From assembly GCA_902623495.1 (NCBI GenBank), contig CACNTW010000006.1, positions 1-64,000 on the forward strand: a stretch of DNA of 64,000 nucleotides, in the 5' to 3' direction. Below the pieces are notes generated by a model. The model did no database searches. It was given only the letters and a program-made list of their open reading frames with translations, and had not been told where the DNA came from. Within the stretch, counting starts at the first letter, position 1, and every line of letters starts with the position of its first letter. This DNA is from an uncultured Pelagibacteraceae bacterium (GTDB lineage Bacteria; Pseudomonadota; Alphaproteobacteria; Pelagibacterales; Pelagibacteraceae). A program made the translations under genes and the position numbers. Positions 17,822-44,327 of the stretch are shown piece by piece.

Positions 17822-17830
17822 AGAATTAAA

Positions 17831-20306: not shown

Positions 20307-20326
20307 TTTAAAGATTAGAATAATTT

Positions 20327-20360
20327 AATAGGCGCCAATTTTATTGGTGCCTATTTTTTT
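20327..20360 (+). terminator. Stem-loop with T-run after tauA
   Basis: AATAGGCGCCAAT (20327-20339) pairs with ATTGGTGCCTATT (20343-20355), one G-T wobble, three-base loop, followed by seven T (20354-20360). It has the form of an intrinsic terminator inside the operon between tauA and tauB. Partial read-through would set the ratio of binding protein to transporter. Confidence 0.85.
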
Positions 20361-20388
20361 AAGTAAATATTTTATATAAAGTCAACTA

Positions 20389-21186: not shown

Positions 21187-23112
21187 ATGTTTACTCAAAT
21201 AATAACAATATTAATTCTTGTATCAATTATCGGGTGCATACTTTATGGAAGACGTTTAATAAAAACTGAAAAAGTTGATGCAGTTTTTGGAAATCCAGAA
21301 AGAGCAAAAGGTGGAACTCATTGGATAATTGTTGGAAGCAGTGCAATATTGTTGGTTTGGCTTTATTATTCTTGGGATATTGCAAAAGGATTTTATCCAA
21401 AATCAGCAAATGAATTATGTCAGGTCGCAAAAATAAATGAGTCTTTACTAGGATTAAAATATCAATTTCCAATTGAAGAAAGAGAATTCAAAAGTACTTC
21501 AATAATAAAAATAGAAAATAAAAATCTTAAAAAAATAAGTTTGGAAATTCAAAATTCGTCAGATTTAAGCAACTTACAGAAAACTGCATTAGTTGGTTTT
21601 ATTAATAAAACAAACAAATTAATTCCATTACTTACTAACGATAATCTAATGGAGATTAACACAAAAATTAAAATAGATGAGATGACTGATGAAATTATAT
21701 TGTTAAGCACTAATTTTCAAAAGAAAGATTATCCATTTGAAACACCAGAGCAAAAAAATAAAAGACTAAAGGCAATTGCTGAGCAAGGAAGCTGGGGCAT
21801 AGTAACTGTAAGTGCCGGTACAGGATCAATAGAAAACACTATTGAAGTGCCTTTAGTACCTGAAACTGATAGAGGGTTAAAATTTCACGCTGCAGCTGAA
21901 CAATTAAAAAAAATTAATGATAAATTTTTTAAATTAAGAAACCATAATCCTCAATTCAAAAATGCAATAAAAGAACTTAAATCAGAGATAAAATTATATA
22001 GAAAAAATTTAGATGACACTGAGGAAGTGGCATCTACTTACGCAAAAAACATTGTAAAAATTGCAAGAAGAATTGAATTTGCAAGTATTTATCCACCAAA
22101 TGCTCTTAATGAAATGCAAAATGCAATTATTGAATTTGATAATCTTCAAAAAACTGAGCAAGGGGGTTTAAGATTAATTGACATTCTTTTATTCCCTGCA
22201 GGAACTATAGTTGCAAGTGGCCCTAGTTGTTCTGAGCAAGGTTCGGGTAGATGGTTACCAAAACCCTCGGATACACTTAATAAATTTATTTTAATGTCTA
22301 AGCCAAGTGTAGGTTACAAAAATATCCCACTTCTTTGGATTGATATGATGGATGTAAGCCAAATAATTGGCTTTATATTGCCAGATTGGATAGCTGATGT
22401 TTTGCCTGGAGAATATCCAGTTCACACTAAAGATGGCGTTGTTAAGCAAAATTTTAAAGGGAAAGTTTTAAAAATTGTTACTGGCGATTTTAAATTATTT
22501 AAAATTCCTGTTCCATATGGACATATCTGGGATTCATTTTTAAGAGTTTTTCTTGGATTAGTTTTTGGAATATTGATTGGTGTACCATTGGGACTTTTCA
22601 TGGGTTTAAATAGATTTGCTAAAGGTTTCTTTGATCCATTAATTGAACTTTACAGACCAGTTCCACCACTTGCATGGGCACCTTTGATTATTTCTGTTCT
22701 CGGAATTGATAATACTGGAAAAGTATTTTTATTATTTATGGTTTCATTATCTATAATGATTATTTCAGCTAGAGCTGGAGCTTCGGGCACACAGTTATCT
22801 AAAATTCATGCAGCACATTCTCTTGGTGCTTCTAAAAGACAAATACTTAGATATGTTATTTTTCCAAATTCTTTACCTGAAATTTTAACAGGTATTAGAG
22901 TGGCGGTTGGTATGTGTTGGGGGACTTTAGTTGCAGCAGAATTTTTAGCAGGCACAACTGGAATTGGATTTGTTGAAAATGTTGCCAAAAAGTATTTTCA
23001 ATACGAAGTAATTTGGATAACCATTTTTATTATGGGTATGTTGGGTCTTCTTTTTGACTTAACTTTGAGAAAAATTATAGATAAGACTATACCTTGGAGA
23101 GGCAAAGGTTAA
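21187..23112 (+). CDS. tauC: Taurine-type permease with large N-terminal extension
   Basis: A 641-residue permease, more than twice the usual TauC length of about 250-280. The last roughly 200 residues are a normal binding-protein-dependent permease domain (GLVFGILIGVPLGLFMGLNR, the EAA-type loop AAHSLGASKRQILRYVIFP). Ahead of it are two membrane helices (about 3-20 and 46-66) and about 360 polar residues, rich in Lys/Glu and helical in appearance, with two cysteines, a SAGTGSIENTIEV stretch and FPAGTIVASGPSCSEQG. The extension should face the periplasm, perhaps contacting the binding protein. It is one uninterrupted frame, not an assembly join. Confidence 0.85.
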   Translation: MFTQIITILILVSIIGCILYGRRLIKTEKVDAVFGNPERAKGGTHWIIVGSSAILLVWLYYSWDIAKGFYPKSANELCQVAKINESLLGLKYQFPIEEREFKSTSIIKIENKNLKKISLEIQNSSDLSNLQKTALVGFINKTNKLIPLLTNDNLMEINTKIKIDEMTDEIILLSTNFQKKDYPFETPEQKNKRLKAIAEQGSWGIVTVSAGTGSIENTIEVPLVPETDRGLKFHAAAEQLKKINDKFFKLRNHNPQFKNAIKELKSEIKLYRKNLDDTEEVASTYAKNIVKIARRIEFASIYPPNALNEMQNAIIEFDNLQKTEQGGLRLIDILLFPAGTIVASGPSCSEQGSGRWLPKPSDTLNKFILMSKPSVGYKNIPLLWIDMMDVSQIIGFILPDWIADVLPGEYPVHTKDGVVKQNFKGKVLKIVTGDFKLFKIPVPYGHIWDSFLRVFLGLVFGILIGVPLGLFMGLNRFAKGFFDPLIELYRPVPPLAWAPLIISVLGIDNTGKVFLLFMVSLSIMIISARAGASGTQLSKIHAAHSLGASKRQILRYVIFPNSLPEILTGIRVAVGMCWGTLVAAEFLAGTTGIGFVENVAKKYFQYEVIWITIFIMGMLGLLFDLTLRKIIDKTIPWRGKG

Positions 23113-30761: not shown

Positions 30762-31673
30762 ATGTTATCTGATAAATCTACAGTTTGCCCTGTTAATCTG
30801 CTTAATATAGCCCATCAAAAAAGGGGTGTAAAAGCAGCCATTGTAAATGCAGGTAAAAAATTACCAATGATGTCGGTAATGGATGCTGTATCTGAAAAAT
30901 TGATTACCCCAATATTAATAGGTGATAAACAAAAAATACAAGAATGCGCAGATGAGCTTAACTTTGATATATCAAATTTTGAAATAATTAATGAGCCAGT
31001 TGAAAATAATACAGCAGGTATTGCAACAAAACTTGCATCAGAAGATAAAGTAAAAATTATTGTAAAAGGACATATTCATACTGATATATTGATGAAAGAA
31101 GTTCTTAAAAGAGAATATAAATTAATTGGAAAAACAAGACTAAGTCATATTTGGCATATGACATTACAAAAAGATGATAAGCCATTAATCATAACCGATG
31201 GAGCATTAAATGTTTCTCCTAACCTAAAAACTAAAATGCATATTTTAAGAAATGTTATAGATTTTAGTCATAGAATTAATATTCCAAGACCAAAGATTTC
31301 TGTCCTTTCAGCAACAGAAGAAGTTATTGATAGTGTACAGAGTTCGGTTGAAGCTAAAGAATTAACTGAATTAGCAAGTAAAGAAAATTTTAATGCTGAT
31401 ATTTTTGGACCCTTAGCATTTGACAATAGTATTTCAAAAAAATCTGCTTCTATTAAGGGAATTGAGAATATAGTTGCTGGAGAAGCTGATGTATTATTAG
31501 TTCCAAATGTCGAAACTGGAAATGCGCTTGTAAAAATGATGATTTATTTTATGGGAGCATGTGCAGCTGGCGTAGTTGTTGGAGGTAAAGTGCCTGTTGT
31601 TATAACAAGTAGATCAGATGATGCGACAGCAAGACTTGCTTCAATAGCTGCAGCTGTTGTTGCTTTAGATTAA
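30762..31673 (+). CDS. Phosphate acetyl/butyryltransferase family protein
   Basis: A 303-residue enzyme of the PTA/PTB family that swaps phosphate and CoA on a short acyl group. Signatures include IIVKGHIHTDILMKEVL, LSHIWHMTL, ADIFGPLAFDNSISKKSA and DVLLVPNVETGNALVKMM at the C-terminus. It is the single-domain short form, as found attached to enoyl-CoA hydratase or MaeB elsewhere. It precedes a HisD-like dehydrogenase by 59 bases. If sulfoacetaldehyde is cleaved to acetyl phosphate, such an enzyme would make acetyl-CoA, but the xsc gene is not present in this window. Confidence 0.85.
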   Translation: MLSDKSTVCPVNLLNIAHQKRGVKAAIVNAGKKLPMMSVMDAVSEKLITPILIGDKQKIQECADELNFDISNFEIINEPVENNTAGIATKLASEDKVKIIVKGHIHTDILMKEVLKREYKLIGKTRLSHIWHMTLQKDDKPLIITDGALNVSPNLKTKMHILRNVIDFSHRINIPRPKISVLSATEEVIDSVQSSVEAKELTELASKENFNADIFGPLAFDNSISKKSASIKGIENIVAGEADVLLVPNVETGNALVKMMIYFMGACAAGVVVGGKVPVVITSRSDDATARLASIAAAVVALD

Positions 31674-31732
31674 ACTTCTGTTGAATAAACATCTTTTATA
31701 ATTTAAACATTTATAAAATTAGAGGAAAGATA

Positions 31733-33019
31733 ATGGCAATTAATTATATAAAAAAAGCTGAAAAAACTGCATTTACAGGTGAAGATGAAACAAGAACCAA
31801 AGTAAGTTCAATTTTAAAAGATTTAGAAAAAACAAAAGACCAAGGGGTTAAAGATATTTTAAAAAAATTTGATAATTATGAAGGTGATATAATTGTTAGC
31901 AAAGAAAAAATTGAAGAAATAAACAAAACTTTAGATCAAAAAATTAAAGATGATATTCAGTTTTCTCATGAAAGAGTAAGAAAGTTTGCAGAACATCAAC
32001 TAGAAAATCTTGGAAAAGACTCAGAAGTAGAATTATCACCTGGTTTAATAGCAGGACAAAAATTAATACCTGTTAATACCGTTGGGTGTTACGTGCCCGG
32101 TGGAAGATATAACAATATCGCCTCTGCTATAATGAGTGTGACGACTGCAAAAGTTGCAGGAGTAAAGAATGTAATTGCAACAAGTCCGCCAAAAGATTCG
32201 AATGGTGCAAACCCAATTATAATTTATACAGCTAACCTTTGTGGTGCAGATGTAATTATGAACATTGGTGGTATAGGGGCAATTGGTGCGCTTGCATATG
32301 GTTGCTTTGGTAATCCAGAAGTAGATATGATTGTTGGACCTGGAAATAAATTTGTAGCAGAGTCTAAAAGAATTTTATTTGGAAAAGTTGGAATTGATTT
32401 ATTTGCTGGACCGACAGAAATAGGCATAATTGCTGATCATACAGCTGATAAAGAAATAATTGCTTATGATTTAGTTGGACAAGCTGAACATGGTCCTGAC
32501 TCTCCTGCTTGGCTTTACACTACTGATAAATCTTTATGTGATTATGTGATGAAAAGAGTTCCAGAAATTATTCATGAACTACCTGAACACAACAGAAATA
32601 ATGCTGATGCTGCATGGAGAGATTATGGAGAAGTAATTATGTGTGATACTAAAGAGGAAATGTTAAAGGTTAGTGATGAATATGCTCCTGAACATTTAGA
32701 GGTTCAGGCTGAAAACTTAGATTGGTATTTAAAAAATTTAAAAAATTATGGTTCATTATTTTTAGGTGAGGAAACAACAGTTGCTTATGGTGACAAATGT
32801 TCTGGACCAAATCACATTTTACCAACAAAGGGAGCAGGAAAATATACTGGCGGCTTATACGTTGGAAAATTTATAAAAACAGTTACTTACCAAAAAATGA
32901 ATAAAGAATCTAACAAAGAAGTTGGTGCTGCTGCAGCTCGAATTTCTAGGTATGAGGGTATGGAAGCGCATGCTAGAACTGGTGATGTTAGACTTCGAAA
33001 ATATGGTTTTTCAAACTAA
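31733..33019 (+). CDS. Histidinol dehydrogenase family, HpsN-like candidate
   Basis: A 428-residue zinc, NAD-dependent dehydrogenase. HisD-type ligands and catalytic residues are kept: Q and H in VGQAEHGPDSPA, E-H in EYAPEHLEV, an aspartate in YGDKCSGPNHILPTKG and H in EAHARTGDVRL. The stretch YTGGLYVGKFIKTVTYQ and the odd genomic position, away from other his genes and beside an acyltransferase and a betaine-type importer, point to a catabolic paralogue. One example is HpsN (dihydroxypropanesulfonate to sulfolactate). Housekeeping HisD remains possible. Confidence 0.7.
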   Translation: MAINYIKKAEKTAFTGEDETRTKVSSILKDLEKTKDQGVKDILKKFDNYEGDIIVSKEKIEEINKTLDQKIKDDIQFSHERVRKFAEHQLENLGKDSEVELSPGLIAGQKLIPVNTVGCYVPGGRYNNIASAIMSVTTAKVAGVKNVIATSPPKDSNGANPIIIYTANLCGADVIMNIGGIGAIGALAYGCFGNPEVDMIVGPGNKFVAESKRILFGKVGIDLFAGPTEIGIIADHTADKEIIAYDLVGQAEHGPDSPAWLYTTDKSLCDYVMKRVPEIIHELPEHNRNNADAAWRDYGEVIMCDTKEEMLKVSDEYAPEHLEVQAENLDWYLKNLKNYGSLFLGEETTVAYGDKCSGPNHILPTKGAGKYTGGLYVGKFIKTVTYQKMNKESNKEVGAAAARISRYEGMEAHARTGDVRLRKYGFSN

Positions 33020-33044: not shown

Positions 33045-34586
33045 ATGAGTAAAGAAAAAACAGTAAAAAACTCATTCAAAGATTTTGCCCAACAAAACGG
33101 CGAATATTACAGTAAAGTTTTCAGTTTAATTCAAAGAAACCAATTAAAATTATATCACATCAACTACTCGGCTCTTTTAGGAGGTTTTTTTTGGTGTGCT
33201 CTAAGAGGGAACTGGTTTCTTTTTTTTCTGAGTTCATTTTTAGATTTAATAGCTGCGGTAAATATTACTTTATATTTTAGATATGGCGCTGGTATTGAGC
33301 AAGCAATATTAGATAAAAAAGATTTTTTGGTTGATAGATACTCAACCTGGCAAGATAGTTCTTTAATTTATGCAATTTTAACTATTATTATAGGAAGAAT
33401 ATTAATTGGTTGGTTAGCAGATAGAGTTTACATCAAACAATTTGATAAGTGGCAAATAAGTAAAAAAACATCATCAGGTTTTAACTTCTCGAGACTTATA
33501 AACGTTTTTTTAGTTTTAGCATTAATTTGGCCTTTAACATTATATAGATCATCACAATTCGCTCCTGATGAAAGAACTTGTATCAAACAACATAGAGCAA
33601 TGGAAAAAGGTGCTGAGGTATCTTTTAAAAAAAGATTTGATTGTTTCTTTATATCTGAATTTCCTATTTTAATTTGGATAGATAGACCTGTTAAAGTTAG
33701 CTATCCAAGAAATGAGGACGGCACTAGATATGTAAAGAAAAAACCTCCTAGAGAAGGAATGCCTACAATTACTCTTAATAAATATGTTTCACAAAAAATT
33801 GAAGAAAAAGTTGGTTATTTAACTGCATTTCACGGATATGTTTTTGATGCTGCAACAGATGGAATAAGGTCATTATTAAAAGGAATATCTGCTTTATTTG
33901 TTGGAACACCGTGGATAATCACGGGTGGAATATTTTTACTTGTAGCTCATAAGATTGCAGGATTTAGAGTTACCATGTTTGTGGCTTTTGCATTGATCTA
34001 TCTCGCTTTGTTTGGTTTTTGGAATACAGCAATGGATACTATGGCTTTAGTATTAACCGCTACTTTAATTTGTTGTGCAATTGGACTGCCTTTAGGGGTT
34101 TTGGTTGGAAAATCAAATAGAGCTGAAACAATTACAAGGCCTATTCTAGATGTTATGCAAACGATTCCCTCATTTGTATATTTGATACCAGCAGTTGCTT
34201 TTTTCTCTGTTGGAAAACCACCAGGAATTATTGCAACTGTAATATTTGCAATGCCCCCAATAGTAAGATTAACAGCTTTAGGAATTAGACAAGTTCCATC
34301 AGAAATTAAAGAAGCAGCTCTCGCTTTTGGTTCTACTGAAAGACAACTATTGTATAGTGTTGAGTTACCACTTGCCCTTCCTTCTATAATGGCTGGTATA
34401 AATCAAGTAGTCATGATGTGTTTATCAATGGTTGTTATTGCTGCTTTAATTGGTGCCGGAGGAATGGGTCTAATAGTTGTTGAGGCTTTAGCGAACACAA
34501 AAATTGGAAGAGGAATTTTAGCAGGTCTTGCAATTGCTTTTATTGCTATGATCATTGATAGAGTTGTACAGAAAGCTACAAAATAA
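33045..34586 (+). CDS. proW: Glycine betaine/proline-type ABC permease with N-terminal extension
   Basis: A 513-residue ProW/OpuAB-family permease. The C-terminal 200 residues carry the usual fold (AIGLPLGVLVGKSNRAETIT, the EAA loop EAALAFGSTERQLLYSVELP, GGMGLIVVEALANT). The first about 300 residues add four to six hydrophobic helices and a soluble loop with several cysteines. The N-terminal RGNWFLFFLSSFLDLI piece resembles small membrane domains of unknown function. It imports quaternary ammonium or similar osmolytes with the binding protein encoded 72 bases downstream. No ATPase gene is adjacent. Confidence 0.8.
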   Translation: MSKEKTVKNSFKDFAQQNGEYYSKVFSLIQRNQLKLYHINYSALLGGFFWCALRGNWFLFFLSSFLDLIAAVNITLYFRYGAGIEQAILDKKDFLVDRYSTWQDSSLIYAILTIIIGRILIGWLADRVYIKQFDKWQISKKTSSGFNFSRLINVFLVLALIWPLTLYRSSQFAPDERTCIKQHRAMEKGAEVSFKKRFDCFFISEFPILIWIDRPVKVSYPRNEDGTRYVKKKPPREGMPTITLNKYVSQKIEEKVGYLTAFHGYVFDAATDGIRSLLKGISALFVGTPWIITGGIFLLVAHKIAGFRVTMFVAFALIYLALFGFWNTAMDTMALVLTATLICCAIGLPLGVLVGKSNRAETITRPILDVMQTIPSFVYLIPAVAFFSVGKPPGIIATVIFAMPPIVRLTALGIRQVPSEIKEAALAFGSTERQLLYSVELPLALPSIMAGINQVVMMCLSMVVIAALIGAGGMGLIVVEALANTKIGRGILAGLAIAFIAMIIDRVVQKATK

Positions 34587-34658
34587 TAGAAAAATAGTAA
34601 TTGATTATAGTATTTAAAAATTAGATAATTCTTTCATTAAATTAAAAGAGAGGGAAAA

Positions 34659-35615
34659 ATGAAAAAACTAATATTAGGTTTAATATTTTCTTCAATAATG
34701 CTTGTTACAACTTCAGCTAAAGCTGCAGGTGAGAAAGTAATGATCTCAGACTTAAGTTGGACTGGTGCAAAAGTTATTGGACACATTATTAAAGCTGTCA
34801 TTAATGGACCTCTGAATTCTGAAGCAGAAATTGTTCAGGGATTATCAGATGGTAACTTGATAATGGCTGGAATGGACAAAGGTGATGGAAAAATTGATGT
34901 TTATACAGATTTGTGGATGCCGAATAGACAAGGTATTTGGGATCAATATATTGATGGAAACAAAACTGTAGCTGTCAACACACCTTATAAAGGAACTCAA
35001 GATATGTATGTTCCTGCATTTTTAAAAAGCAAAGTTCCAGATGTTGCAGCAATGAAAGATCCAAACGTTGCAGCGATGTTTGATACAGACGGCAATGGTA
35101 AAGGTGAATACTGGGCCGGTGATGCTGGATGGAAATCTACAAAAATGTGGCAAGTTAAATTTAAAAGTTATGGTTTAACTGACCTTTGGGAACCAAATAT
35201 TATTCCACAAGATACTTTTAAAGCACAATTAAAAGATGCAATTGATAATCAAAAGCCAATATTATTTTATTATTGGACACCAGAATGGTTACATGCAGCT
35301 TATGACTTACATGAAATTGGTGAGCCTGCTTACACTGAAGGATGTGATTCAAATATGAACTTAGATGCTGAAGATTGGTTAGAAGTATCAGAGTTTCCGT
35401 GCAAAAGTAGACAAGCGACTATTTATGTAGCTTATTCAAAATCTTTGGAAAAAAGAAATCCAAAAGCTGCTAAATTTTTAAGTCAAATGGCTATGGACCC
35501 TAAAGTAATCAACCAATGGATATTAAAAGTTGGAAGAGATGAAATGGATGCTGACGATATGGCAGAAGAATGGGTTAAAAATAATATGTCTACTGTAAAT
35601 AAGTGGATAAACTAA
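34659..35615 (+). CDS. proX: Glycine betaine/proline-type ABC binding protein
   Basis: A 318-residue periplasmic protein with signal peptide (residues 1-22, TTSAKA) and OpuAC/ProX-like features: DLSWTGAKVIGHIIKAVING, IDVYTDLWMPNRQGIWDQY and ILFYYWTPEWLHAAYDL, rich in tryptophan as expected for an aromatic cage around a quaternary ammonium group. It likely binds betaine, proline betaine, DMSP or a related solute. It follows the permease gene rather than an ATPase gene. The strong RBS GAGGG lies just before the ATG. Confidence 0.85.
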   Translation: MKKLILGLIFSSIMLVTTSAKAAGEKVMISDLSWTGAKVIGHIIKAVINGPLNSEAEIVQGLSDGNLIMAGMDKGDGKIDVYTDLWMPNRQGIWDQYIDGNKTVAVNTPYKGTQDMYVPAFLKSKVPDVAAMKDPNVAAMFDTDGNGKGEYWAGDAGWKSTKMWQVKFKSYGLTDLWEPNIIPQDTFKAQLKDAIDNQKPILFYYWTPEWLHAAYDLHEIGEPAYTEGCDSNMNLDAEDWLEVSEFPCKSRQATIYVAYSKSLEKRNPKAAKFLSQMAMDPKVINQWILKVGRDEMDADDMAEEWVKNNMSTVNKWIN

Positions 35616-35668: not shown

Positions 35669-36742
35669 CTATTTAAAAATGTCTACTCCAATCTGGCTGA
35701 GTATGTGTGCCAAATCTATTGGCACCCAATTTTCTCTAATTTTTCCCTCATCATGATGGTAAAAATCCATAACTCTCATGGTTACTTTATTTTTGTTTGA
35801 ATTATATCCTAGCCAATCATTTGAACCATACACTGCTTGTATACTGTGCCATCCAGCAGTAAGTGAAAATTTACCATCTCCTAACTCACAATAATGTCCT
35901 AGTTCCCAGTAATTTCTCTCTTTAAATGTTTTTCTAAAAGGAAGTTGATGATGGTCAATGAAACCTTCCAAAGAGCGCGCCGTACCTATACCGCTAGGTC
36001 CATACCAAATCATTTTTTCATGCCAAAAATCTTTTTGTGGGTGATTAAGAAGTTTTTCTTTTAAATCAGAGTCAGATGATGCTTCTAATTCTGGTTTAAT
36101 GTTTAAACTTCTTTGCATGGTAAGAGATTGATCTAGAGTAGCTTTTGAAACTTCTAAATTATTTTCGTAAAAATTTACACCATCTGTGTTTATTGGTGTC
36201 ATCCAAATGCCCTCATACCCTCTTGAAGGATTTATTGGAAACTTCCCTACTTGATTTAGAAAATTTATTGTGTCGATTAAAATGTGACTTTCAATAATTT
36301 TATCGTTTTTTAATTCGTGTATCTCACAGCATCTTAAATTTACCATTTTAAAATTTGGCTCTACATTAAGCCATTTCTTTTTAAAAATTCCTGATAAGGT
36401 AGATATTGTTCCAACTTGAAATTTATCTCTAAAGGCTCCACCTATAACGAGTTGTTCTCTTCTCTCTAAATCAGGAAACGCATCAAAAAGTGGTGTCCAA
36501 AATTTATCTCTAAAATTAGACAAACCTTTAAATTCATTTAATGGAAAAAAACATTTAATGTTTACATCTTCGCTAAAATATTTGCTTAAATTTTCTTCTA
36601 TATTAGATGGTCCAAGCTTGTAAGTATTGTTCAAATAATTTCTAACTATTTGTTTATTTTGTTTATTTTCTTTAGCTGTGATTTTTAATTCTTGAAAATT
36701 ATTTTGATTTTTAAGTCCTGTATCAAATTGTTCTATTTGCAT
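35669..36742 (-). CDS. Two-domain SnoaL-like (ester cyclase) protein
   Basis: A 357-residue protein made of two SnoaL/NTF2-like units. The first (about residues 40-180) includes FSEDVNIKCFFPLNEFKGLS and FRDKFWTPLFDAFPDLERRE; the second (about 215-350) includes FWHEKMIWYGPSGIGTARSL and HYCELGDGKFSLTAGWHS. Such domains bind small hydrophobic molecules and some act as cyclases or isomerases. No catalytic residue can be named. The ATG at 36742 is preferred because the longer form from 36802 would run through the divergent cupin gene start (36784). It faces that gene and has a terminator behind it. Confidence 0.65.
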   Translation of the reverse strand: MQIEQFDTGLKNQNNFQELKITAKENKQNKQIVRNYLNNTYKLGPSNIEENLSKYFSEDVNIKCFFPLNEFKGLSNFRDKFWTPLFDAFPDLERREQLVIGGAFRDKFQVGTISTLSGIFKKKWLNVEPNFKMVNLRCCEIHELKNDKIIESHILIDTINFLNQVGKFPINPSRGYEGIWMTPINTDGVNFYENNLEVSKATLDQSLTMQRSLNIKPELEASSDSDLKEKLLNHPQKDFWHEKMIWYGPSGIGTARSLEGFIDHHQLPFRKTFKERNYWELGHYCELGDGKFSLTAGWHSIQAVYGSNDWLGYNSNKNKVTMRVMDFYHHDEGKIRENWVPIDLAHILSQIGVDIFK

Positions 36743-36783
36743 AAGTTGCAATTTATATTTAAATAGACATAAATAACAAGAAT

Positions 36784-37722
36784 ATGATTGATAGATTGGC
36801 AAAATTTAATGAACTGGTTCCAAGCAGTCTTCCTTTTGTAGAAGGTAGGCTAGAAGGTCATAAAGAAAGAAAAAATTATACAATTATTGGACGTGGAGTT
36901 GCTGAAGACACCAAACAATTAATAAAAATACAGTCTTTACACGGGTATAATTTAGGAGCTGTGAGTGCTATGCCAAAAAACGGATCTGGTCTTCACAGTC
37001 ATACTACGGCTGAAGTGTTTGTAATTTACTCAGGTAAATGGAGATTTTATTGGGGTGCTGATGGAAAACAAGAAACAATATTAGAGGCTGGCGATATAAT
37101 CTCAATGCCTACAAATATGTTCAGAGCATTTGAAAATGTTGGAGATAAAGAAAGTTTGATGTTCGTTGTATTAGGCGGAGATGATCCTGGTATAATAACA
37201 TGGGTTCCAGAAATTTTAAAAAAGGCAAAAGAGACTGGTATGGCATTGCTTGATGATAATTCGTTAATTGATTTAAAAAAGGTTGAAGTACCTAACGGTA
37301 GAAAGATGATAGAGCCTATCACTCAAGATGAATTAGAAAGATTTGATAATTATTTGCCAGAAGAATTAGAAAAAAATATTTATAGAACTAAACAAAACAA
37401 TATCAGCGATGAAGTTAATGGTATTAAATTATATCAAGTATTAGGAAACAAATTTAATAAAAAAACTTATGAACCTTCAATCAAACAAGATACTGGATTT
37501 AATTTAACAACATTAAATTCTATATCTGGTGAAATTAAAGATATTGAATGTATAAAGCCAACCGTTCTTTTTGCTCAAGAAGGTAATTGGAAAATAGTAA
37601 TAGGAAACTCAAATATAAAATTAGAAAAAGGAGATACTTTTTCAGTTCCTTTGAGTAGCAAAATAGATATCTCTTGTAATAATTCAGAAAATAGTATTTT
37701 AAATTTTGTTAGTCAGATCTAA
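36784..37722 (+). CDS. Two-lobed cupin protein
   Basis: A 312-residue protein with two cupin lobes. The first holds a full metal motif, GSGLHSHTTAEVFVIYSG (about residues 60-77) with GDIISMPTNMFRAFENVG as the second motif, so His-His-Glu and a later position can bind Fe, Mn or Zn. The second lobe (about 230-310) has the fold signature but no histidines (VLFAQEGNWKIVIGNSN), so it is probably structural. The reaction is unknown; related bicupins are dioxygenases or isomerases. Its stop and the next gene's ATG overlap by one base. Confidence 0.75.
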   Translation: MIDRLAKFNELVPSSLPFVEGRLEGHKERKNYTIIGRGVAEDTKQLIKIQSLHGYNLGAVSAMPKNGSGLHSHTTAEVFVIYSGKWRFYWGADGKQETILEAGDIISMPTNMFRAFENVGDKESLMFVVLGGDDPGIITWVPEILKKAKETGMALLDDNSLIDLKKVEVPNGRKMIEPITQDELERFDNYLPEELEKNIYRTKQNNISDEVNGIKLYQVLGNKFNKKTYEPSIKQDTGFNLTTLNSISGEIKDIECIKPTVLFAQEGNWKIVIGNSNIKLEKGDTFSVPLSSKIDISCNNSENSILNFVSQI

Positions 37723-38681
37723 TGAAAGGATTTGATAGTAATTATAAAAATTTAACTGATTACATTTTAAAAATTACTAAACAAATTTGGGAAGGGAAAG
37801 ATGTCGAGTCGATATCCAAATATTATTCAGAGAATATCCCTGTAAGATCACCTTTTGGGATAACCTATGGTTTTAAACCTGTTATTGATGCAACCTATAA
37901 AACTTTAGACGAATTTCCAGACAGACAATTATTAGGTGAAGATGTAATTTGGAGTGGAAATGACGATGAAGGATATCATTCATCTCACAGAATTCTGAGC
38001 AAAGCTACACATTTAAAGGACGGATTTTACGGAAAAAAAACTGGAAACAAAATTGTTTATAGAGTTATAGCTGACTGTGCATGTAAAAATAATCAAGTTT
38101 ATGATGAGTGGATTGTGAGAGATCAAGGTGCAATGGTTCGACAGCTAGGTTATACACCTGAGAAATTTGCAAGGCATTTAATTGATAAAGAAGGTGGCGT
38201 ATCAAAAGCTATCAAAGTTTTTGATAGATCTTCTGATAAAAAGTCAGAGTATACTCCAGTAAAAGTTAATGAAGTTTCATCAGGCTATATATATTCTAAT
38301 ATTTTAAAGAAGATATTTAATAACGATTATGATTTTGAAGATTATGATAGAGCAGCCAGTCTATTTTGGCCAAGTAATAAAGTAGGAAATGGCAGTGAAG
38401 ATATAATTAAATATTGGAGCTCTTTAAAAAATATATTTTCTGAAATAAAATTTACAATCGAACATGTTGCATCATTGGATGAAAAAAATAACAATCAAAA
38501 AGCTACGATCAGATGGTTTTTAAGTGGGAAGCACTCTAAAGACAGTGAAGAATTTGGAAAAAAGACTGACAAAGATTTATTTATAATGGGTATAAATCAT
38601 GCAGAATTAAGAGATGATAAAATAATAAGAGAATGGGTATTGTTTGATGAAGTGGCTATTTGGAAACAAATATTAATGTAA
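37722..38681 (+). CDS. Two-domain SnoaL-like protein
   Basis: A 319-residue protein with two NTF2/SnoaL-like halves: VRSPFGITYGFKPVIDATY and DEFPDRQLLGEDVIWSGN in the first, FWPSNKVGNGSEDIIKYW and EHVASLDEKNNNQKATIRWF in the second. This is the same two-domain plan as the divergently encoded protein at 35.7-36.7 kb, but sequence similarity is low by eye. The pair brackets the cupin gene. It could act on the same ligand class, perhaps as partner subunits; no function is assigned. Translation is coupled to the cupin gene. Confidence 0.6.
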   Translation: MKGFDSNYKNLTDYILKITKQIWEGKDVESISKYYSENIPVRSPFGITYGFKPVIDATYKTLDEFPDRQLLGEDVIWSGNDDEGYHSSHRILSKATHLKDGFYGKKTGNKIVYRVIADCACKNNQVYDEWIVRDQGAMVRQLGYTPEKFARHLIDKEGGVSKAIKVFDRSSDKKSEYTPVKVNEVSSGYIYSNILKKIFNNDYDFEDYDRAASLFWPSNKVGNGSEDIIKYWSSLKNIFSEIKFTIEHVASLDEKNNNQKATIRWFLSGKHSKDSEEFGKKTDKDLFIMGINHAELRDDKIIREWVLFDEVAIWKQILM

Positions 38682-38686
38682 AAACT

Positions 38687-39814
38687 ATGGATAAAATTAA
38701 AACCACACATGTTGGAAGTCTACCAAGATCAAAAAAGCTATCTGAGATGCTTTTTAAAAAAGATAAAAATGAATTATTCGATCAAGGAGAACTTGATAAG
38801 ATAATTGAAGAAGATGTAAATAAAATTGTAAAAAAACAAATTGATATCGGGATTGACATTATAAGTGATGGTGAAATGTCAAAAATAAGTTACGCCACTT
38901 ATGTCAAGGATCGATTACATGGCTTTAGTGGTGAAAGTGTGAGAAGAGCCCCTAAAGACTTAGATGATTTTCCATCATATAAAGAAAAAATTGCAAAATC
39001 AGGGGGTACGCCTACTTATACAAGACCATGTTGTACTGCTGATCTAAAAATTAAAGATACTAAATCTTTAACTAAAGATATCATTAATTTAAAATCAGCG
39101 TTAAAAAAAAATAACCATCCTCAAGGATTTATTAACTCTGCTTCGCCAGGAGTAATTTCAAATTTCCTTCCAAACAAATTTTATAAAAATGATGATGATT
39201 ATTTAGAAGCATTATCAAAAATTATGAAAACTGAATATGATGAAATAACAAAGAATGATTTATTATTGCAAATTGATTGCCCAGATCTTGCGCTAGCAAG
39301 ACATATGACTTTTAAAAATGTATCAGATGAAGAATTTTTAGTAAGAGCTGAAAAACAAATCGAATGTCTTAATGAAGCAATCAAAGATATCGATGCCTCT
39401 AAGTTAAGAATGCATATCTGCTGGGGAAATTATGAAGGACCACATATTCACGATATTGGATTAGAAAAAATATTACCTATTGCTTTAAAAGCAAATATCC
39501 AAACTTATTTAATCGAGGCATCCAATCCAAGGCATGCTCATGAATGGAAGGTATTTGAGAACATAAAACTTCCTAATGACAAAGTAATAGTTCCTGGTGT
39601 AATAGACTCAACCTCAAACTTTGTAGAGCATGAAGAGTTAGTAAAAAATAGAATAATTCAGTATTCAAAAGTAATTGATAAAAACCAATTAATGGCTGGA
39701 AGTGATTGTGGATTTAGTACTTTTGCTGGCTTTGGAAATGTTGATGAAAATATTGTTTACAAAAAATTTGAATCTTTGGTCGCAGGTGCAGAGCTTGCGT
39801 CAAATGCGATTTAA
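38687..39814 (+). CDS. Core MetE-type zinc methyltransferase
   Basis: A 375-residue protein equal to the C-terminal catalytic half of cobalamin-independent methionine synthase; the N-terminal half is absent. It starts KTTHVGSLPRSKKL, the usual beginning of this group. Likely zinc ligands are H and C in LRMHICWGNYEG, E in YLIEASNPRHAHEW and C in MAGSDCGFST. Stand-alone core-MetE proteins can move methyl groups from substrates other than methyltetrahydrofolate. The ATG at 38687 is used because the longer form begins with TTG inside the previous gene. Methionine synthesis or methylated-substrate demethylation are both possible. Confidence 0.75.
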   Translation: MDKIKTTHVGSLPRSKKLSEMLFKKDKNELFDQGELDKIIEEDVNKIVKKQIDIGIDIISDGEMSKISYATYVKDRLHGFSGESVRRAPKDLDDFPSYKEKIAKSGGTPTYTRPCCTADLKIKDTKSLTKDIINLKSALKKNNHPQGFINSASPGVISNFLPNKFYKNDDDYLEALSKIMKTEYDEITKNDLLLQIDCPDLALARHMTFKNVSDEEFLVRAEKQIECLNEAIKDIDASKLRMHICWGNYEGPHIHDIGLEKILPIALKANIQTYLIEASNPRHAHEWKVFENIKLPNDKVIVPGVIDSTSNFVEHEELVKNRIIQYSKVIDKNQLMAGSDCGFSTFAGFGNVDENIVYKKFESLVAGAELASNAI

Positions 39815-39887
39815 AAAATACTTTTAAATTCCTTTTGGAATATATATCCTTCTAATCATAAATTTAAATTTAATGAGGGAATCAAAT

Positions 39888-41108
39888 ATGAAAAAAATAT
39901 TAATTTCTTTATTGCTTCTTCTTTTTGGAACTTCTGCTTACGCAGATTGTAACATTAAGAGTGGATCAATAAATATTTTAGCTAATGATTTTCCAGCTTT
40001 AAGAACTTTCGTGGAAACGGCTAAAGGATGTAAAGGAAGTGCAGATTTTAAAGTCACACACTCATCTGAGCACAATAAAATTGCTGTGCCAGCTTTAACT
40101 GCAAATCCATCAGAGTTTTCTGCAAGAATTGCAGCAAATAGCTCTATTGTTCCTTTGATGAACCAAGACTTAATTAGACCACTAGATGATCTTGTTAAGA
40201 AATATGGAAAAGGAATTCAAGACTCTCAATTGATAACAATTGATGGAAAAATAATGGCAGTTGCTTTTATGGCAAATACTCAGCACTTATATTACAGAGA
40301 AGATGTTTTAAAAGAATTGGGTATAGCTGTTCCTAAAACATATGAGGAAGTAGTAGCGGCATCAGAAAAAATAAGAGCATCTGGTAAAATGCAATATCCA
40401 TACGCAGCAGCATACAAAGCTGGTTGGAATTTAGCAGAAGAATTCGTTAACATGTATATTGGACATGGAGGAGAATTCTTTAAAGCAGGAACTGCTCAAC
40501 CAAGCATTAACAATGCAAAAGGTGTAGCAACATTAAATATGTTAAAAAAATTAGCAGGTTTAAGTAACCCAGATTATTTAACTCACGATAGTGAAGCTAT
40601 TAAAGTTGAATGGGAATCTGGAAATGTTGCATTAATGACTCTTTGGGCATCAAGATCAGGAACATTGCTTGATGATGATGGTGATGCAAAAATTACAGCT
40701 GCAACTAAATTAACTGGACCAGCAACAGTTGCTGGAGGAAACATACCAGCGGCGACTTTATGGTGGGACGGTTTCACATTAGCAAAAAATAGATCTGACG
40801 CTGATGCTGAAGCAACATTTAGAGCTTTGGCACACGCAGCTGCTAACAAAAAGATGGTTGCAGATGCAGCGGATCAAGCTGTTTGGTTAATTGAAGGTTT
40901 TAAGCCTGGACCAAAATCAATTGGAGTTATCGAAGCTGTTAAAATGAAAGCTAAACCATATCCAATGTTACCACAAATGGGTTTAATGCATGGTGCATTA
41001 GGAAGTGAGATTGTTGAATTTTTACAAGGTAAAGAGTCAGCAGAACAAGCTTTAAAAGATGTTGAAGCAGCTTACATGAGTAAAGCAAAAGAACAAGGCT
41101 TTCTATAA
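39888..41108 (+). CDS. Sugar-type ABC substrate-binding protein
   Basis: A 406-residue periplasmic protein with a signal peptide (residues 1-19, LLLLFGTSAYAD). The fold is of the maltose/glycerol-3-phosphate binding class: IAANSSIVPLMNQDLIRPLD, AVAFMANTQHLYYREDVLKELG, WESGNVALMTLWASRSGTLL and LWWDGFTLAKN. Sugar or polyol is likely but not certain. The ATG at 39888 is chosen over one 15 bases earlier because a GAGGGA Shine-Dalgarno lies between them at 39875-39880. It opens a transport operon, with a stem-loop after its stop. Confidence 0.82.
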   Translation: MKKILISLLLLLFGTSAYADCNIKSGSINILANDFPALRTFVETAKGCKGSADFKVTHSSEHNKIAVPALTANPSEFSARIAANSSIVPLMNQDLIRPLDDLVKKYGKGIQDSQLITIDGKIMAVAFMANTQHLYYREDVLKELGIAVPKTYEEVVAASEKIRASGKMQYPYAAAYKAGWNLAEEFVNMYIGHGGEFFKAGTAQPSINNAKGVATLNMLKKLAGLSNPDYLTHDSEAIKVEWESGNVALMTLWASRSGTLLDDDGDAKITAATKLTGPATVAGGNIPAATLWWDGFTLAKNRSDADAEATFRALAHAAANKKMVADAADQAVWLIEGFKPGPKSIGVIEAVKMKAKPYPMLPQMGLMHGALGSEIVEFLQGKESAEQALKDVEAAYMSKAKEQGFL

Positions 41109-41120
41109 TCAATAAATTTT

Positions 41121-41144
41121 AAGTGGGGATTAAAATCCCCACTT
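41121..41144 (+). terminator. Stem-loop after the sugar-type binding-protein gene
   Basis: AAGTGGGGA (41121-41129) and TCCCCACTT (41136-41144) form a perfect nine-base-pair stem with a six-base loop, between binding protein and permease genes. The T-run is missing (ATTACATT follows), so it may stabilise the upstream message or partly stop transcription. Confidence 0.65.
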
Positions 41145-41153
41145 ATTACATTA

Positions 41154-42182
41154 ATGCCTAACAAAACTTTTTTTTGGTTTTTCTTGCCAACTGGATTGGC
41201 AATGATTTTATTTATAGGTCTTCCTATCATTTCAACAGGGATACAATCATTTTATGCGCAGCACGACCAAGTTGTTAAGGAAGTAAAAAAATGTGATCCT
41301 TTTGGATGTACAGTTTCAATAGTTGTTGACCAAGAAAAAACCTCTAAAATTCGAGAAGAAAAGCCTTTAGGAAAATTCAATGGATTTGGGACTTATGTAG
41401 ATAGAAATCATCTTGCAATAAAAGAAATTGGAAAATTTTGGGACGAAACAAATAGTTTTGGGGAATTTGTAGATCAAGTTACCAACCTCCCCTTTTACAA
41501 GGCTCTAATTTTTACTTTAACTTATTGCTTATTTGTAACGCCTAACGTCTTACTTTTGGGTTTTATAATTGCTTTAAGTCTTAATGCAGTAACTAGAAGA
41601 ATTAGAGGACCATTAATATTTGGAACCATATTGCCGATGATTGTTACTCCATTGGTAGGTTCTTTAGTTTTATTTTGGATGATAGATGCAGAAGGAATTA
41701 TTGGCGCGAATTTGCAAATGTTAATGGATGACCCTTATTTATCGTTAAAATCCTCAAAAACTCTTACTTGGATAACTATAATAATATATGGAATTTGGCA
41801 CCATTCACCATTTGCTTTTGTAGTATTTTATGCAGCTTTACAAACTGTTCCCCAAGAACCTGTTGAAGCAGCTATTATTGATGGAGCATCAAGATGGCAG
41901 AGAGTAAGACATATTGTTTTGCCTCATATTTATCCCGTAGTTACATTTGTTGCTCTTATTTCATTGATGGATAATTTTAGAGTTTTTGAGCCTATAATTG
42001 GTTTCAGTGCTGAAGGAAGCGCTCAGTCTTTGTCTTGGTTGATTTATGACAACCTGGTAAATGAGGAAGTAATATTATTTGGTTCAGCCGCTGCTACTTC
42101 AATGATGACAATTGTTGGGATAGCGATACTTTTAGCACCAGTTTTAATAAGAACTTGGAAAGAATTTAGGACAGCGAGATAA
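41154..42182 (+). CDS. Sugar-type ABC permease, MalF-like
   Basis: A 342-residue membrane protein with about six helices and the permease signature EAAIIDGASRWQRVRHIVLP near residue 240. An extra periplasmic loop of about 75 residues (from about 35, with a KKCDPFGCTV segment carrying two cysteines) follows the first helix, as in MalF. It should form a heterodimer with the next gene product. The stop is followed immediately by the next start. Confidence 0.85.
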   Translation: MPNKTFFWFFLPTGLAMILFIGLPIISTGIQSFYAQHDQVVKEVKKCDPFGCTVSIVVDQEKTSKIREEKPLGKFNGFGTYVDRNHLAIKEIGKFWDETNSFGEFVDQVTNLPFYKALIFTLTYCLFVTPNVLLLGFIIALSLNAVTRRIRGPLIFGTILPMIVTPLVGSLVLFWMIDAEGIIGANLQMLMDDPYLSLKSSKTLTWITIIIYGIWHHSPFAFVVFYAALQTVPQEPVEAAIIDGASRWQRVRHIVLPHIYPVVTFVALISLMDNFRVFEPIIGFSAEGSAQSLSWLIYDNLVNEEVILFGSAAATSMMTIVGIAILLAPVLIRTWKEFRTAR

Positions 42183-43064
42183 ATGGAATACGGACTTGAT
42201 AAAAGATCGAATGCTTTAAAAATTTTTAATACAACCTTTATAATAGTTTGGTTGTTGGTTGCATGCTTTCCCTTTATTTGGACTTTCTGGGGGTCATTTA
42301 AAGTTAGAGCTGACTTTTTTTCAAGAGCTGACTGGTGGTATGCTATTACAGCATTCAATACGTTGCTAGAAACTGGAGGAAAGTTTACAACAGATGCTTA
42401 TAGTCAAGCATGGACTGAAGGAGAGTTTTGGAAAGCATCTAGGAATACAGTTATAGTTACATTTTTTGTTGTAACCATTTCTCTGTTCCTCGGGACCTTA
42501 GGAGCTTACGCTTTATCTAGGTCTACAAGAAATTATGCATTTTGGATTTTAATTGCAGCATTAATTTTTAGAGCAATGCCGCATATTACATTAGTCTCTG
42601 GTTATTTATTTCCGTTTTTTCAATTACAAATTTGGGGAATACTACCGACGACCATCGTTGTTCTTGTTGCAATAAATCAACCATTTACTTTGTGGTTATT
42701 GTATTCATTTTTTAAAACTGTTCCTAAAGAACTTGATGAAAGTGCTTTAATTGATGGCTGCTCTTATTTTCAAGCATTTAGACATATCATTATGCCAGTT
42801 ATGTGGCCTGGAGTAATAACTGCTGGATTATTTAGTTTAATGCTTGCGTATAATGATTTTACAGTGACAGCTCTTTTATTAAATCAGGAAAATCATACTA
42901 TGGTACCCAAAATCCAAAGTTATCTTGGAACAAATCAACATGAAGGTAATTTGATGTGGGCTGTTTCTGCAGTTGTTTCGGCTACTGCTCCTTTATTTAT
43001 GTTAGTTATGTTTTTCCAAAGACAAGTAATCAGTGGATTAACAGCTGGTGCTGTGAAGGGATAA
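42183..43064 (+). CDS. Sugar-type ABC permease, MalG-like
   Basis: A 293-residue second permease subunit with six helices and the EAA-type loop DESALIDGCSYFQAFRHIIM near 200. An FPFIWTFWGSFKVRADFF stretch follows helix 1, common to MalG/UgpE proteins. It overlaps the HAD-like gene downstream by one base (TAATG). No ATPase gene follows, so a shared MsmX/UgpC-type ATPase from elsewhere would be required. Confidence 0.85.
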   Translation: MEYGLDKRSNALKIFNTTFIIVWLLVACFPFIWTFWGSFKVRADFFSRADWWYAITAFNTLLETGGKFTTDAYSQAWTEGEFWKASRNTVIVTFFVVTISLFLGTLGAYALSRSTRNYAFWILIAALIFRAMPHITLVSGYLFPFFQLQIWGILPTTIVVLVAINQPFTLWLLYSFFKTVPKELDESALIDGCSYFQAFRHIIMPVMWPGVITAGLFSLMLAYNDFTVTALLLNQENHTMVPKIQSYLGTNQHEGNLMWAVSAVVSATAPLFMLVMFFQRQVISGLTAGAVKG

Positions 43065-43723
43065 TGAGTTACAAAGCTGTTTTATTTGGTTCTATTGGAA
43101 CTTTAGCTGAGACATCAGATCTTCAAAGAGATGCATTTAATGAAGCTTTTAAAATAAGTGGATTAGACTGGTTTTGGGATGAAGATATATACAGGAAACT
43201 ATTGTCAAAATCAGGTGGAACTACGAGAATCAATGATTACGCAAAAGATACTAGTGTTGAAATAGATGGAAAAAAAATAAGAAATTTAAAAACCAAAATT
43301 TTTAATGAATATTTAAACAAACACAAAGTTGAGCCTAGAGACGGTGTAAAAGAAATAATTCAATTTTGCAAAAAGAACAAAATAAAAATTGGACTTGCTA
43401 GCTCAACAACGAGTAACAATATCAATTCTATTTTTAACTCATTAAGAGGAAGAATTGAAAAAAAAGATTTTGATTTTATCGGCAATAATGAATTCATATT
43501 AAGAGAAAAACCATATCCCGATATTTATAATTATGCTTTAAAATACTTGAATATTAACTCAGACGAATGTGTGGCAATTGAAGATACAGAAGAAAGTTTA
43601 AATTCTGCTTTAAGTGCAGACATAAAATGTGTTGCATTTCCTGGAAAATATCACACTCAATACGGATTTGATGGGAACCATTTAAAGGTTAATAAATTAT
43701 CAAAAAAAATCTTTAATAAATAA
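43064..43723 (+). CDS. HAD-fold protein lacking the catalytic aspartates
   Basis: A 219-residue member of the CbbY-like HAD family by fold: cap domain with LQRDAFNEAFKISGLDWFWD, motif II ASSTTSNNI, lysine motif REKPYPDIY and motif IV VAIEDTEESL. Motif I, normally DxDGTL, reads FGSIGTLAET, so both the nucleophile Asp and the acid/base Asp are replaced. It therefore should not act as a usual phosphatase. It may bind a sugar phosphate or regulate the transporter encoded just before it, with which it shares a TAATG junction. Confidence 0.8.
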   Translation: MSYKAVLFGSIGTLAETSDLQRDAFNEAFKISGLDWFWDEDIYRKLLSKSGGTTRINDYAKDTSVEIDGKKIRNLKTKIFNEYLNKHKVEPRDGVKEIIQFCKKNKIKIGLASSTTSNNINSIFNSLRGRIEKKDFDFIGNNEFILREKPYPDIYNYALKYLNINSDECVAIEDTEESLNSALSADIKCVAFPGKYHTQYGFDGNHLKVNKLSKKIFNK

Positions 43724-44327
43724 TATCTCTAATAATGTAAAAAACTATACCTGACATAAATATTATAATAAAAATATTTATGTATTTCCAAAAGCTTCTA
43801 TTATTTAATTTGTTTGAAAAAATCTTAGATAAGTATCCTAAAGAAAAGAAAAATAAAAAAGAAGCTATAGAAGCGCCTATTCCAAAGTAAATTTTGTTTT
43901 CAATATTAAAGGATTTTGAGAAATTTCCTAAAAAAAATACTGTATCAGAATATACGTGAGGATTTAAATATGTAAAACCTAATGTTTTAATAAAGATATT
44001 AAATGAGCTCTGTGCTATGACATTATTTTTAAATTCTAAAGATCTAAATTTAAATATTTCTTTAATTTTTCCATAAATAAAAAAAGATAAAAAAATAATT
44101 AAAAGGATATTTAAAATCAGCTCCACTACATTATTAAAATAATAAGAAAAATAATTAAATAAAAAGATTCCTAAGAAAATTAAAATCAAATCAGATAATG
44201 CACAGATTAAGCAAACTAAAAATATATATTGTTTCTTTAGTCCTTGCTCTATTACAAAAACATTTTGTGGTCCTATTGCAAAAATTAATGTTAAGCCCGT
44301 CAAAAAACCTAAAAAAATAAAAGACAT
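43713..44327 (-). CDS. LysE/ArgO-type amino acid exporter
   Basis: A 204-residue membrane protein with six helices. N-terminal SFIFLGFLTGLTLIFAIGPQ and NVFVIEQGLKKQYIFLV match LysE/ArgO proteins, which export basic amino acids. Codon use is very AT-rich and isoleucine/phenylalanine heavy like its neighbours. The gene overlaps the HAD-like gene by 11 bases at the 3' end and ends 2 bases from the next MFS start, so it is probably in an operon with that MFS gene. Confidence 0.8.
   Translation of the reverse strand: MSFIFLGFLTGLTLIFAIGPQNVFVIEQGLKKQYIFLVCLICALSDLILIFLGIFLFNYFSYYFNNVVELILNILLIIFLSFFIYGKIKEIFKFRSLEFKNNVIAQSSFNIFIKTLGFTYLNPHVYSDTVFFLGNFSKSFNIENKIYFGIGASIASFLFFFSLGYLSKIFSNKLNNRSFWKYINIFIIIFMSGIVFYIIRDIIY

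Follow-up and report, generated by a model that had tools for sequence, protein, structure and literature searches.

Several described systems each resemble part of the locus considered here, a unit of eight genes at positions 35669 to 43723 of a 64,000-nucleotide stretch of DNA (the window; positions 1 to 64,000 of contig CACNTW010000006.1) from an uncultured SAR11 bacterium of the family Pelagibacteraceae. Core methionine synthases (core-MetE; MesA to MesD as defined in PMC7857596) consist of the catalytic MetE domain alone and have its zinc ligands and homocysteine-binding residues. The MetE-like protein of our unit shares these features, but it scores under every curated methionine synthase cut-off in NCBIfam (the best score is 106.4, versus a cut-off of 406) and has a fixed place in what seems to be a catabolic operon. 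Also, MesX (DUF1852, PF08908), the partner of the aerobic MesD type, had no match in a search that covered the eight proteins and not the rest of the genome. Sugar importers of the CUT1 class (MalE/UgpB-type binding protein, SmoF and others) have a binding protein and two permeases, as does our unit, and some relatives of the unit include a UgpC-type ATPase; the window's unit differs in having no ATPase gene. Oxidative pathways for sugars and sugar acids combine a dehydrogenase, a lactonase, an aldolase and a LacI regulator. A larger operon that is related to our unit (see below) has a short-chain dehydrogenase (SDR), a lactonase-type hydrolase, a pyruvate-type aldolase and LacI, but it has SnoaL proteins and a bicupin in place of a known dehydratase, and it also has a HisD-like dehydrogenase and MetE. 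The nearest solved structure to the HisD-like protein of this operon in Ruegeria is HpsN, the 3-dehydrogenase for 2,3-dihydroxypropane-1-sulfonate (DHPS); however, the Ruegeria protein scores just 385 bits, versus 510 bits for a neighbor of our unit, and belongs to a separate clade. Finally, the methoxyaromatic demethylation clusters of sphingomonads resemble the unit in that a MetE-like gene and a small NTF2 gene lie among such genes in Croceicoccus and, more loosely, in Sphingobium. They differ in that their MetE-like proteins are 42-44% identical to ours, the Sphingobium protein lies outside the clade of operon proteins (Croceicoccus is not in the tree), and there is no sugar importer and no bicupin.

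The unit is real and coherent, and it is apparently undescribed: we did not find a description of this operon in the literature (bioRxiv and most subscription papers were outside the search). It may take up and degrade a solute that is methylated and sugar-like, with the methyl group passing to homocysteine; we give this reading a probability of roughly 0.46.

A block of eight genes in Pelagibacter

The unit contains the following genes, which were assigned to families by Pfam matches above the curated cut-offs:

35669..36742, minus strand: snoA, double-domain SnoaL-like protein, divergent from the other seven (SnoaL, 67.6 bits, two stretches; scanned from 36739)
36784..37722, plus strand: bicupin (Cupin_2, one stretch, first lobe)
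37722..38681, plus strand: snoB, double-domain SnoaL-like protein (SnoaL, 53 bits, two stretches)
38687..39814, plus strand: core-MetE-like protein (Meth_synt_2, PF01717, 62.8 bits; alternative start TTG at 38660)
39888..41108, plus strand: periplasmic binding protein, MalE/UgpB type (SBP_bac_1, 58.9 bits)
41154..42182, plus strand: importer permease 1, UgpA type (BPD_transp_1)
42183..43064, plus strand: importer permease 2, GlcU/MalG type (BPD_transp_1)
43064..43723, plus strand: HAD-fold protein without either catalytic Asp (HAD_2, 79.7 bits)

An earlier note on this DNA had proposed this layout, and a check of the window's open reading frames found all eight genes at those positions. Its descriptions of the proteins also held up. 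Both of the proteins that it called double-domain SnoaL-like have two SnoaL stretches and score above the cut-off of 28.4 bits; the supposedly inactive HAD protein lacks the catalytic aspartates and reads FGSIGT where phosphatases carry DxDGT; the proposed zinc MetE core has all four zinc ligands; and the cupin that was said to bind metal with one degenerate lobe has an HxH...E motif in its N-terminal lobe and no such motif in the sequence of the second lobe.

Most of the genes are tightly packed. Cupin and snoB overlap by one base, as do permease 2 and the HAD gene, and there is no space between the two permeases. The spacers measure 41 bases from snoA to cupin (given a snoA start at 36742), 5 bases between snoB and MetE (if MetE starts at 38687), 73 bases between MetE and the binding protein (if that starts with the ATG at 39888), and 45 bases between the binding protein and permease 1. 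For MetE, the ATG at 38687 is more likely to be the start than the TTG at 38660, because alignments to relatives with about 76% identity do not begin until residue 8-10 and because a stop that was counted in one genome (G168) disappears once the query begins at 38687. The ATG at 36742 is the more likely start of snoA.

The earlier note had asked if these genes stay together in other genomes, and within Pelagibacter they do. A scan with the MetE-like protein identified 209 loci that encode a relative, and we kept the best 80, which are all from Pelagibacteraceae. Wherever the contig reaches, each gene is in the expected place and direction: snoA in 65 of 65 loci, cupin in 66 of 66, snoB in 73 of 73, the binding protein in 79 of 79, the permeases in 76 of 76 and 75 of 75, and the HAD gene in 72 of 72. 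The full set of eight is present in 61 of the 80 loci. The view that the genes form one unit is thus borne out.

Among 201 genomes of the genus, 32 have MetE and 33 have the binding protein (the genome handles suggest that both counts are from the same sample), and among the 30 that are near complete (completeness of 90% or more, contamination of 5% or less), each of these genes is found in 12. Of the 35 genomes with either gene, 30 have both, 3 have the binding protein only, and 2 have MetE only. Four of these five exceptions lie at contig ends: the matches in G074 and G178 begin at base 3 of the contig, the match in G746 ends one base before the contig does, and in G615, just 259 bases are left where MetE should begin. 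The fifth, G618, is a partial match. In a broader sample from the order, 74 of 197 genomes have some match to MetE (E < 0.001), of which 36 are close relatives (66-100% identity), all from the window's genus, and the other 38 match at 22-42% identity.

Two genes flank the insertion site:

31733..33019, plus strand: HisD-superfamily dehydrogenase of HpsN type (DHPS dehydrogenase), probably not part of the unit
43713..44327, minus strand: right-hand flank, presumably a LysE-type gene, downstream of the HAD gene and convergent with it

In the window and in two other genomes (G020 and G122), the lysE-type and hpsN-type genes enclose the unit. Three genomes lack it (G024, G026 and G130), and there these two genes are near each other, about 0.2 to 1.1 kb apart as estimated from the starts of the matches. 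Thus, the unit is gained and lost as a block.

A larger operon in roseobacters

To the earlier note, this combination of genes was not recognizable, which agrees with our literature search; however, the unit is not a stand-alone oddity. By homology, it represents a shortened form of a more extensive catabolic operon that roseobacters and others carry. MetE-like proteins (E < 1e-20) are encoded by 74 of 385 genomes of the class. For wider relatives, we used plasmid records and a genome search, fetched the stretches around 40 of the matches listed for the class, chiefly the top ones, and matched reference proteins to these 40 stretches, 6 plasmid loci, and 8 of the 80 Pelagibacter loci. The operon of Ruegeria conchae encodes a UgpC-type ATPase, a binding protein, two permeases, a SnoaL protein with two domains, a SnoaL protein with one domain, a HisD-like protein, another SnoaL protein, an SDR, LacI, another SnoaL protein, the cupin, the MetE-like protein, an alpha/beta hydrolase and RraA, in that order. 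The operons of Marinovum and Octadecabacter are similar.

In a tree of the 55 MetE-like proteins from these stretches and loci, the operon proteins form a clade of 30 (support 88/92), which splits into halves of 11 and 19 (each 100/100). A bicupin is encoded in the fetched stretch for 29 of these 30 (the exception, L151, is a short contig), but for just 2 of the 25 proteins outside the clade (L168 and L174). snoB is an orthologue of the roseobacter gene that lies between lacI and cupin (a clade of 26, support 100/100). In three near relatives with genomes of 1.4-1.6 Mb (L147 to L149), an operon-type HisD accompanies cupin, snoA, snoB and MetE. Two of them, L148 and L149, encode an SDR and an RraA-like protein in addition (31-36% identical to the references), and L149 has the HAD gene as well.

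MetE seems to be an extra step attached to a shared route, because otherwise similar operons in Sinorhizobium medicae, Roseibium, Paracoccus and Martelella have no MetE in the fetched stretch by protein matching (L187, L191, L193 and L194). In a tree of 45 bicupins, the presence of a nearby MetE changes 8 times, and at least 4 of these changes are forced by well-supported branches; this count leans on the stretches having been fetched by MetE or by cupin, and it does not give a frequency.

In the Ruegeria operon, the regulator resembles RbsR, the SDR resembles KduD and glucose dehydrogenases, and the hydrolase resembles PcaD, all below the curated cut-offs. The Ruegeria RraA-like protein weakly resembles LigK (28.5 bits, versus a cut-off of 304.5), and 16 RraA-like proteins have the GxxRD motif. 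Across the phylum, relatives of the bicupin (E < 1e-30) are found in 25 of 398 genomes. In Klebsiella michiganensis and in three genomes from one family of the phylum (L239 to L241), a bicupin relative occurs with LacI, a transporter of the major facilitator superfamily, a HisD-like protein, an SDR, a hydrolase and an HpcH-type aldolase, and L239 and L240 have SnoaL-type genes as well. The Klebsiella aldolase resembles HpaI (below the curated cut-off). In Vibrio and at L242, the cupin, HpcH aldolase and hydrolase adjoin otnK, otnC and otnI.

A second locus in R. conchae (L188, 8799-17458) combines an importer with four SnoaL-type genes and LacI but has none of the operon's remaining enzymes. 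Its binding protein is the best match in that record to the window's (57.7% identity). This arrangement suggests that the SnoaL proteins act on the importer's cargo. We also considered a rule that SnoaL genes accompany ABC (ATP-binding cassette) importers but never TRAP (tripartite ATP-independent periplasmic) transporters, and rejected it: L177 has a TRAP transporter and no SnoaL gene in the stretch, but L236 has a TRAP transporter with a SnoaL gene, and Roseibium (L191) has a TRAP transporter as well as ABC genes at the edge of the stretch.

Proteins of the unit

The MetE-like protein (375-384 amino acids) has one PF01717 stretch, which corresponds to the catalytic domain of MetE without the N-terminal folate domain. 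In the numbering of E. coli MetE, the zinc ligands are H641, C643, E665 and C726. The homocysteine-binding residues S433, E484 and D599 are those named in PMC7857596. All seven residues are conserved in 31 of 31 operon-clade sequences, including the window's. The host genome, which is about 93% complete, contains no other PF01717 gene.

The bicupin has the HxH...E motif of the N-terminal lobe in all 35 aligned sequences, including the window's, but the usual histidine of the second motif, which would be the fourth ligand, is arginine in all 35. Quercetinase-type bicupin dioxygenases presumably have a 3-His-1-Glu metal set in the active lobe, and this set is incomplete here. The predicted structure (predicted local distance difference test [pLDDT] score of 90.6) has a bicupin fold and is similar to YxaG (Z = 21.5, root mean square deviation of 2.4, 222 aligned positions), oxalate decarboxylase (Z = 22.8) and Ylba (Z = 20.5). 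We do not assign it as a quercetinase or as an oxalate decarboxylase, as both folds are close matches and the comparison does not separate them.

The predicted structure of snoB (pLDDT of 94.5) resembles SnoaL-type folds, and its N-terminal half, compared by itself, matches SnoaL2, AclR and others with Z of 17.1-17.7. The first-ranked Foldseek match is Lsd19, a double-domain epoxide hydrolase (E = 2.5e-10, but with a template modeling [TM] score of only 0.35-0.39), and limonene epoxide hydrolases have the same fold. No one SnoaL reaction stood out in the structure comparison. H89, E129, R264 and H271 are among the residues that are invariant across 33 sequences.

Otherwise near-identical Pelagibacter cassettes carry either of two versions of snoA, which are 63-65% identical to each other. 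Among 36 loci of the first subclade that include snoA, 16 have the window's version (96-100% identity) and 20 have the other (63-64%), while MetE and cupin are 96-99% and 95-99% identical throughout. In two pairs of loci (L033/L034 and L036/L035), the 300-base blocks that cover snoA are 65-77% identical at the nucleotide level, and those to the left and right are 92-100% identical. These sharp borders are a signal of recombination. The second version is not simply the type of subclade 2, as it is just 64-67% identical to the six snoA proteins from there that we compared. Because a single enzyme gene is replaced in an otherwise uniform cassette, these sequences suggest that snoA sets the cassette's specificity.

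The solved relatives of the binding protein are mostly sugar-binding proteins, and its full-length matches within the genus are 89-100% identical. As the earlier note had it, the importer lacks an ATPase in the window's unit, but this does not extend to all relatives: five from the second subclade (L077, L084, L105, L262 and L264) have a UgpC-type ATPase beside snoA. In the host genome, the nearest UgpC-like ATPase (51% identical to the one from Marinovum) is in another sugar-type importer locus (L246). The altered motif of the HAD protein is conserved as FGSIGT or FGSIGS in all 75 loci whose N terminus is covered, including L149 (L051 is not covered). It may act as a sensor, as the earlier note proposed.

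Proposed role and alternatives

We infer a substrate class, an order of steps, the reactions and an ATPase partner as follows. The binding protein and the two permeases, powered by a UgpC-type ATPase that is shared or lies nearby, would bring in a methylated, polyhydroxylated, sugar-like solute. The two SnoaL proteins would act on the imported compound by isomerization, dehydration or ring opening, and a keto or enol intermediate that arises later would be the substrate of the metal-binding bicupin. The MetE-like enzyme would activate homocysteine as a zinc thiolate and take the methyl group from an intermediate, yielding methionine. In roseobacters, the demethylated skeleton might then be processed by the HisD-like and SDR dehydrogenases, the lactonase-type alpha/beta hydrolase and the RraA-like aldolase, the last of which would yield pyruvate. 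SAR11, which keeps only the importer, the SnoaL pair, the bicupin, MetE and the HAD protein, may collect the methyl group and leave the remainder of the molecule to other enzymes.

Oxidation of a sugar or sugar acid is suggested by the RbsR-like LacI, KduD-like SDR, PcaD-like hydrolase, RraA-like protein, HpaI-type aldolase and MalE-type binding protein, and sugar acids also by the cupin/aldolase/hydrolase module beside otnK, otnC and otnI. The MetE-type residues for zinc and homocysteine would suit demethylation. The earlier note had proposed import along with demethylation or isomerization of a methylated small molecule. That the genes are one unit, which combines import with conversion and includes the residues of a methyltransferase, is in line with this; the nature of the methylated compound is still our guess. 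We had also suspected homarine catabolism and set it aside, as we found no paper that links homarine to the unit.

Several points weigh against the proposed role. An unactivated methyl ether is a poor direct methyl donor for a thiolate, and no member of the unit has a known ligand or reaction. The zinc and homocysteine residues do not set the operon enzyme apart, because nearly all of the 25 MetE-like proteins outside the clade keep them (S433, D599, H641, C643 and C726 in 25 of 25, E484 in 23 and E665 in 24). The host genome has just two HisD homologues, one of them on another contig, and neither is of the operon type; RraA has no match in this genome. The route would therefore be incomplete in SAR11. 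The genome also contains three genes from PF02574 (in four matches), the family of homocysteine S-methyltransferases, which includes BHMT, so it may not need another methionine synthase. In G653, MetE is broken by stops (C5:75112-76234) while the binding protein is intact, and in G734, the gene for the binding protein falls into two pieces and contains a stop (C10:3866-5085) while MetE is intact; these breaks could be due to decay or to assembly errors. Last, in a mutant of a mes-like gene of P. inhibens, dimethylsulfoniopropionate still shortens the lag phase, according to PMC12366255, although this gene may or may not belong to the operon clade. Neither "SnoaL" nor "cupin" appears in that paper's main text.

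If the proposed role is correct, then a core-MetE tied to an importer, as found in 32 of the 201 genus members and in 12 of the 30 with near-complete genomes, could offer SAR11, whose cells are among the most numerous on Earth, a second way to turn dissolved methylated compounds into methionine. Core-MetE homologues in marine bacteria would then gain a function as well. Because some roseobacters with the related operon can be cultured, the methyl route is open to testing. A 2025 paper states that SAR11 lack MetE and MetH and calls the function of such homologues questionable (PMC12478193). A more ambitious version of our proposal is doubtful: this would be a widespread and undescribed marine route in which SnoaL and bicupin proteins prepare a methylated plankton metabolite for direct methyl transfer to homocysteine, independent of folate and B12, with the methyl-harvesting core present in SAR11 as a cassette that can be exchanged, and with replacements of snoA changing which version of the compound is used.

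Sister MetE-like genes bear on the chemistry. In Croceicoccus, the gene occurs with an aminomethyltransferase-type gene, metF, purU, folD and the small NTF2 gene, and oxalomesaconate tautomerase and ligK are nearby; Sphingobium has similar genes within the stretch. In Dietzia and Rhodococcus, the MetE-like gene occurs with a 2-oxoglutarate oxygenase, PhyH and an HD protein. The haloarchaeal and Pantoea neighborhoods showed no clear pattern, except in Halobellus limi. By analogy, the sister neighborhoods fit with methyl-removal chemistry, but they prove nothing for the SAR11 protein. As separate observations, the PhyH/HD pair beside the MetE-like gene at two actinobacterial loci (L145 and L248) recalls phosphonate oxidases, and in H. 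limi (L146, 2750-9143), five SnoaL genes in a row precede the MetE-like gene, near a phosphonate importer.

The alternative that survives best, although an unlikely one, is that the MetE-like protein is a thiol-alkylating enzyme or a lyase, similar to epoxyalkane:coenzyme M transferase, and that it couples a thiol, be it homocysteine or a different one, to an epoxide or enone made by the SnoaL proteins, so that there would be no demethylase. The match of snoB to Lsd19, the shared fold with limonene epoxide hydrolases, and the scores of the MetE-like protein, which are far under the curated cut-offs for methionine synthases, are consistent with this idea. However, the homocysteine-binding residues are kept in all 31 operon sequences, and they would seem to be needless for a thiol without the amino acid part; also, a sister gene adjoins genes that suggest demethylation.

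It is similarly unlikely that the MetE-like protein is a plain methionine synthase, independent of folate and B12, that happens to lie beside an unrelated sugar importer and receives its methyl donor from elsewhere. Although the core residues of methionine synthase are kept, the clade goes together with the bicupin operon in several families and forms one block with the importer in SAR11, PF02574 genes are present, and MesX is missing from the eight proteins.

We see a smaller chance that the substrate is a mycosporine or a sunscreen compound of the 4-deoxygadusol type. In this route, which is no more probable, the SnoaL proteins would remove amino acids, HisD would oxidize the ring CH2OH, MetE would remove the ring O-methyl, and the bicupin would cleave the reductone. 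With the same low probability, the product would be 4-carboxy-4-hydroxy-2-oxoadipate or citrate, which would go to an aldolase or the tricarboxylic acid cycle. By our own reasoning, the carbon bookkeeping fits, and the product of ring cleavage would be a substrate for a LigK-type aldolase, which the Ruegeria RraA-like protein weakly resembles. Furthermore, ring-cleaving bicupin dioxygenases are among the close fold matches, and the named operons with MetE (Ruegeria, Marinovum, Octadecabacter and SAR11) are all marine. On the other hand, the bicupin lacks the histidine of the fourth ligand, the otnK, otnC and otnI neighbors are a better match for sugar acids, neither the operon-type HisD nor RraA is present in SAR11, and no paper on such catabolism turned up in the literature search, at the level of titles.

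Finally, the unit might belong with the neighboring HpsN and Pta genes in catabolism of the sulfonate DHPS, as an HpsN-type gene is nearby, but the distribution (141 of 201 genomes of the genus, versus 32 for MetE) already makes this unlikely, and with the roseobacter operon having a different HisD clade, we rejected HpsN as part of the unit and give the idea almost no weight.

The HpsN-type protein itself scores 510 bits against the solved sulfopropanediol 3-dehydrogenase and 242 bits against histidinol dehydrogenase, and it lies outside the operon-type HisD clade in the tree. This gene could be mistaken for histidinol dehydrogenase; it is preceded by a Pta-like gene (30762-33019 for the pair). 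Between hpsN and the unit is a pair of ProW/ProX-like genes (33045-35615), which is present in some Pelagibacter and absent in others. Farther away, at 16703-23112, alanine dehydrogenase, aminotransferase and importer genes resemble a taurine route. The labels for both of these regions are our own reading.

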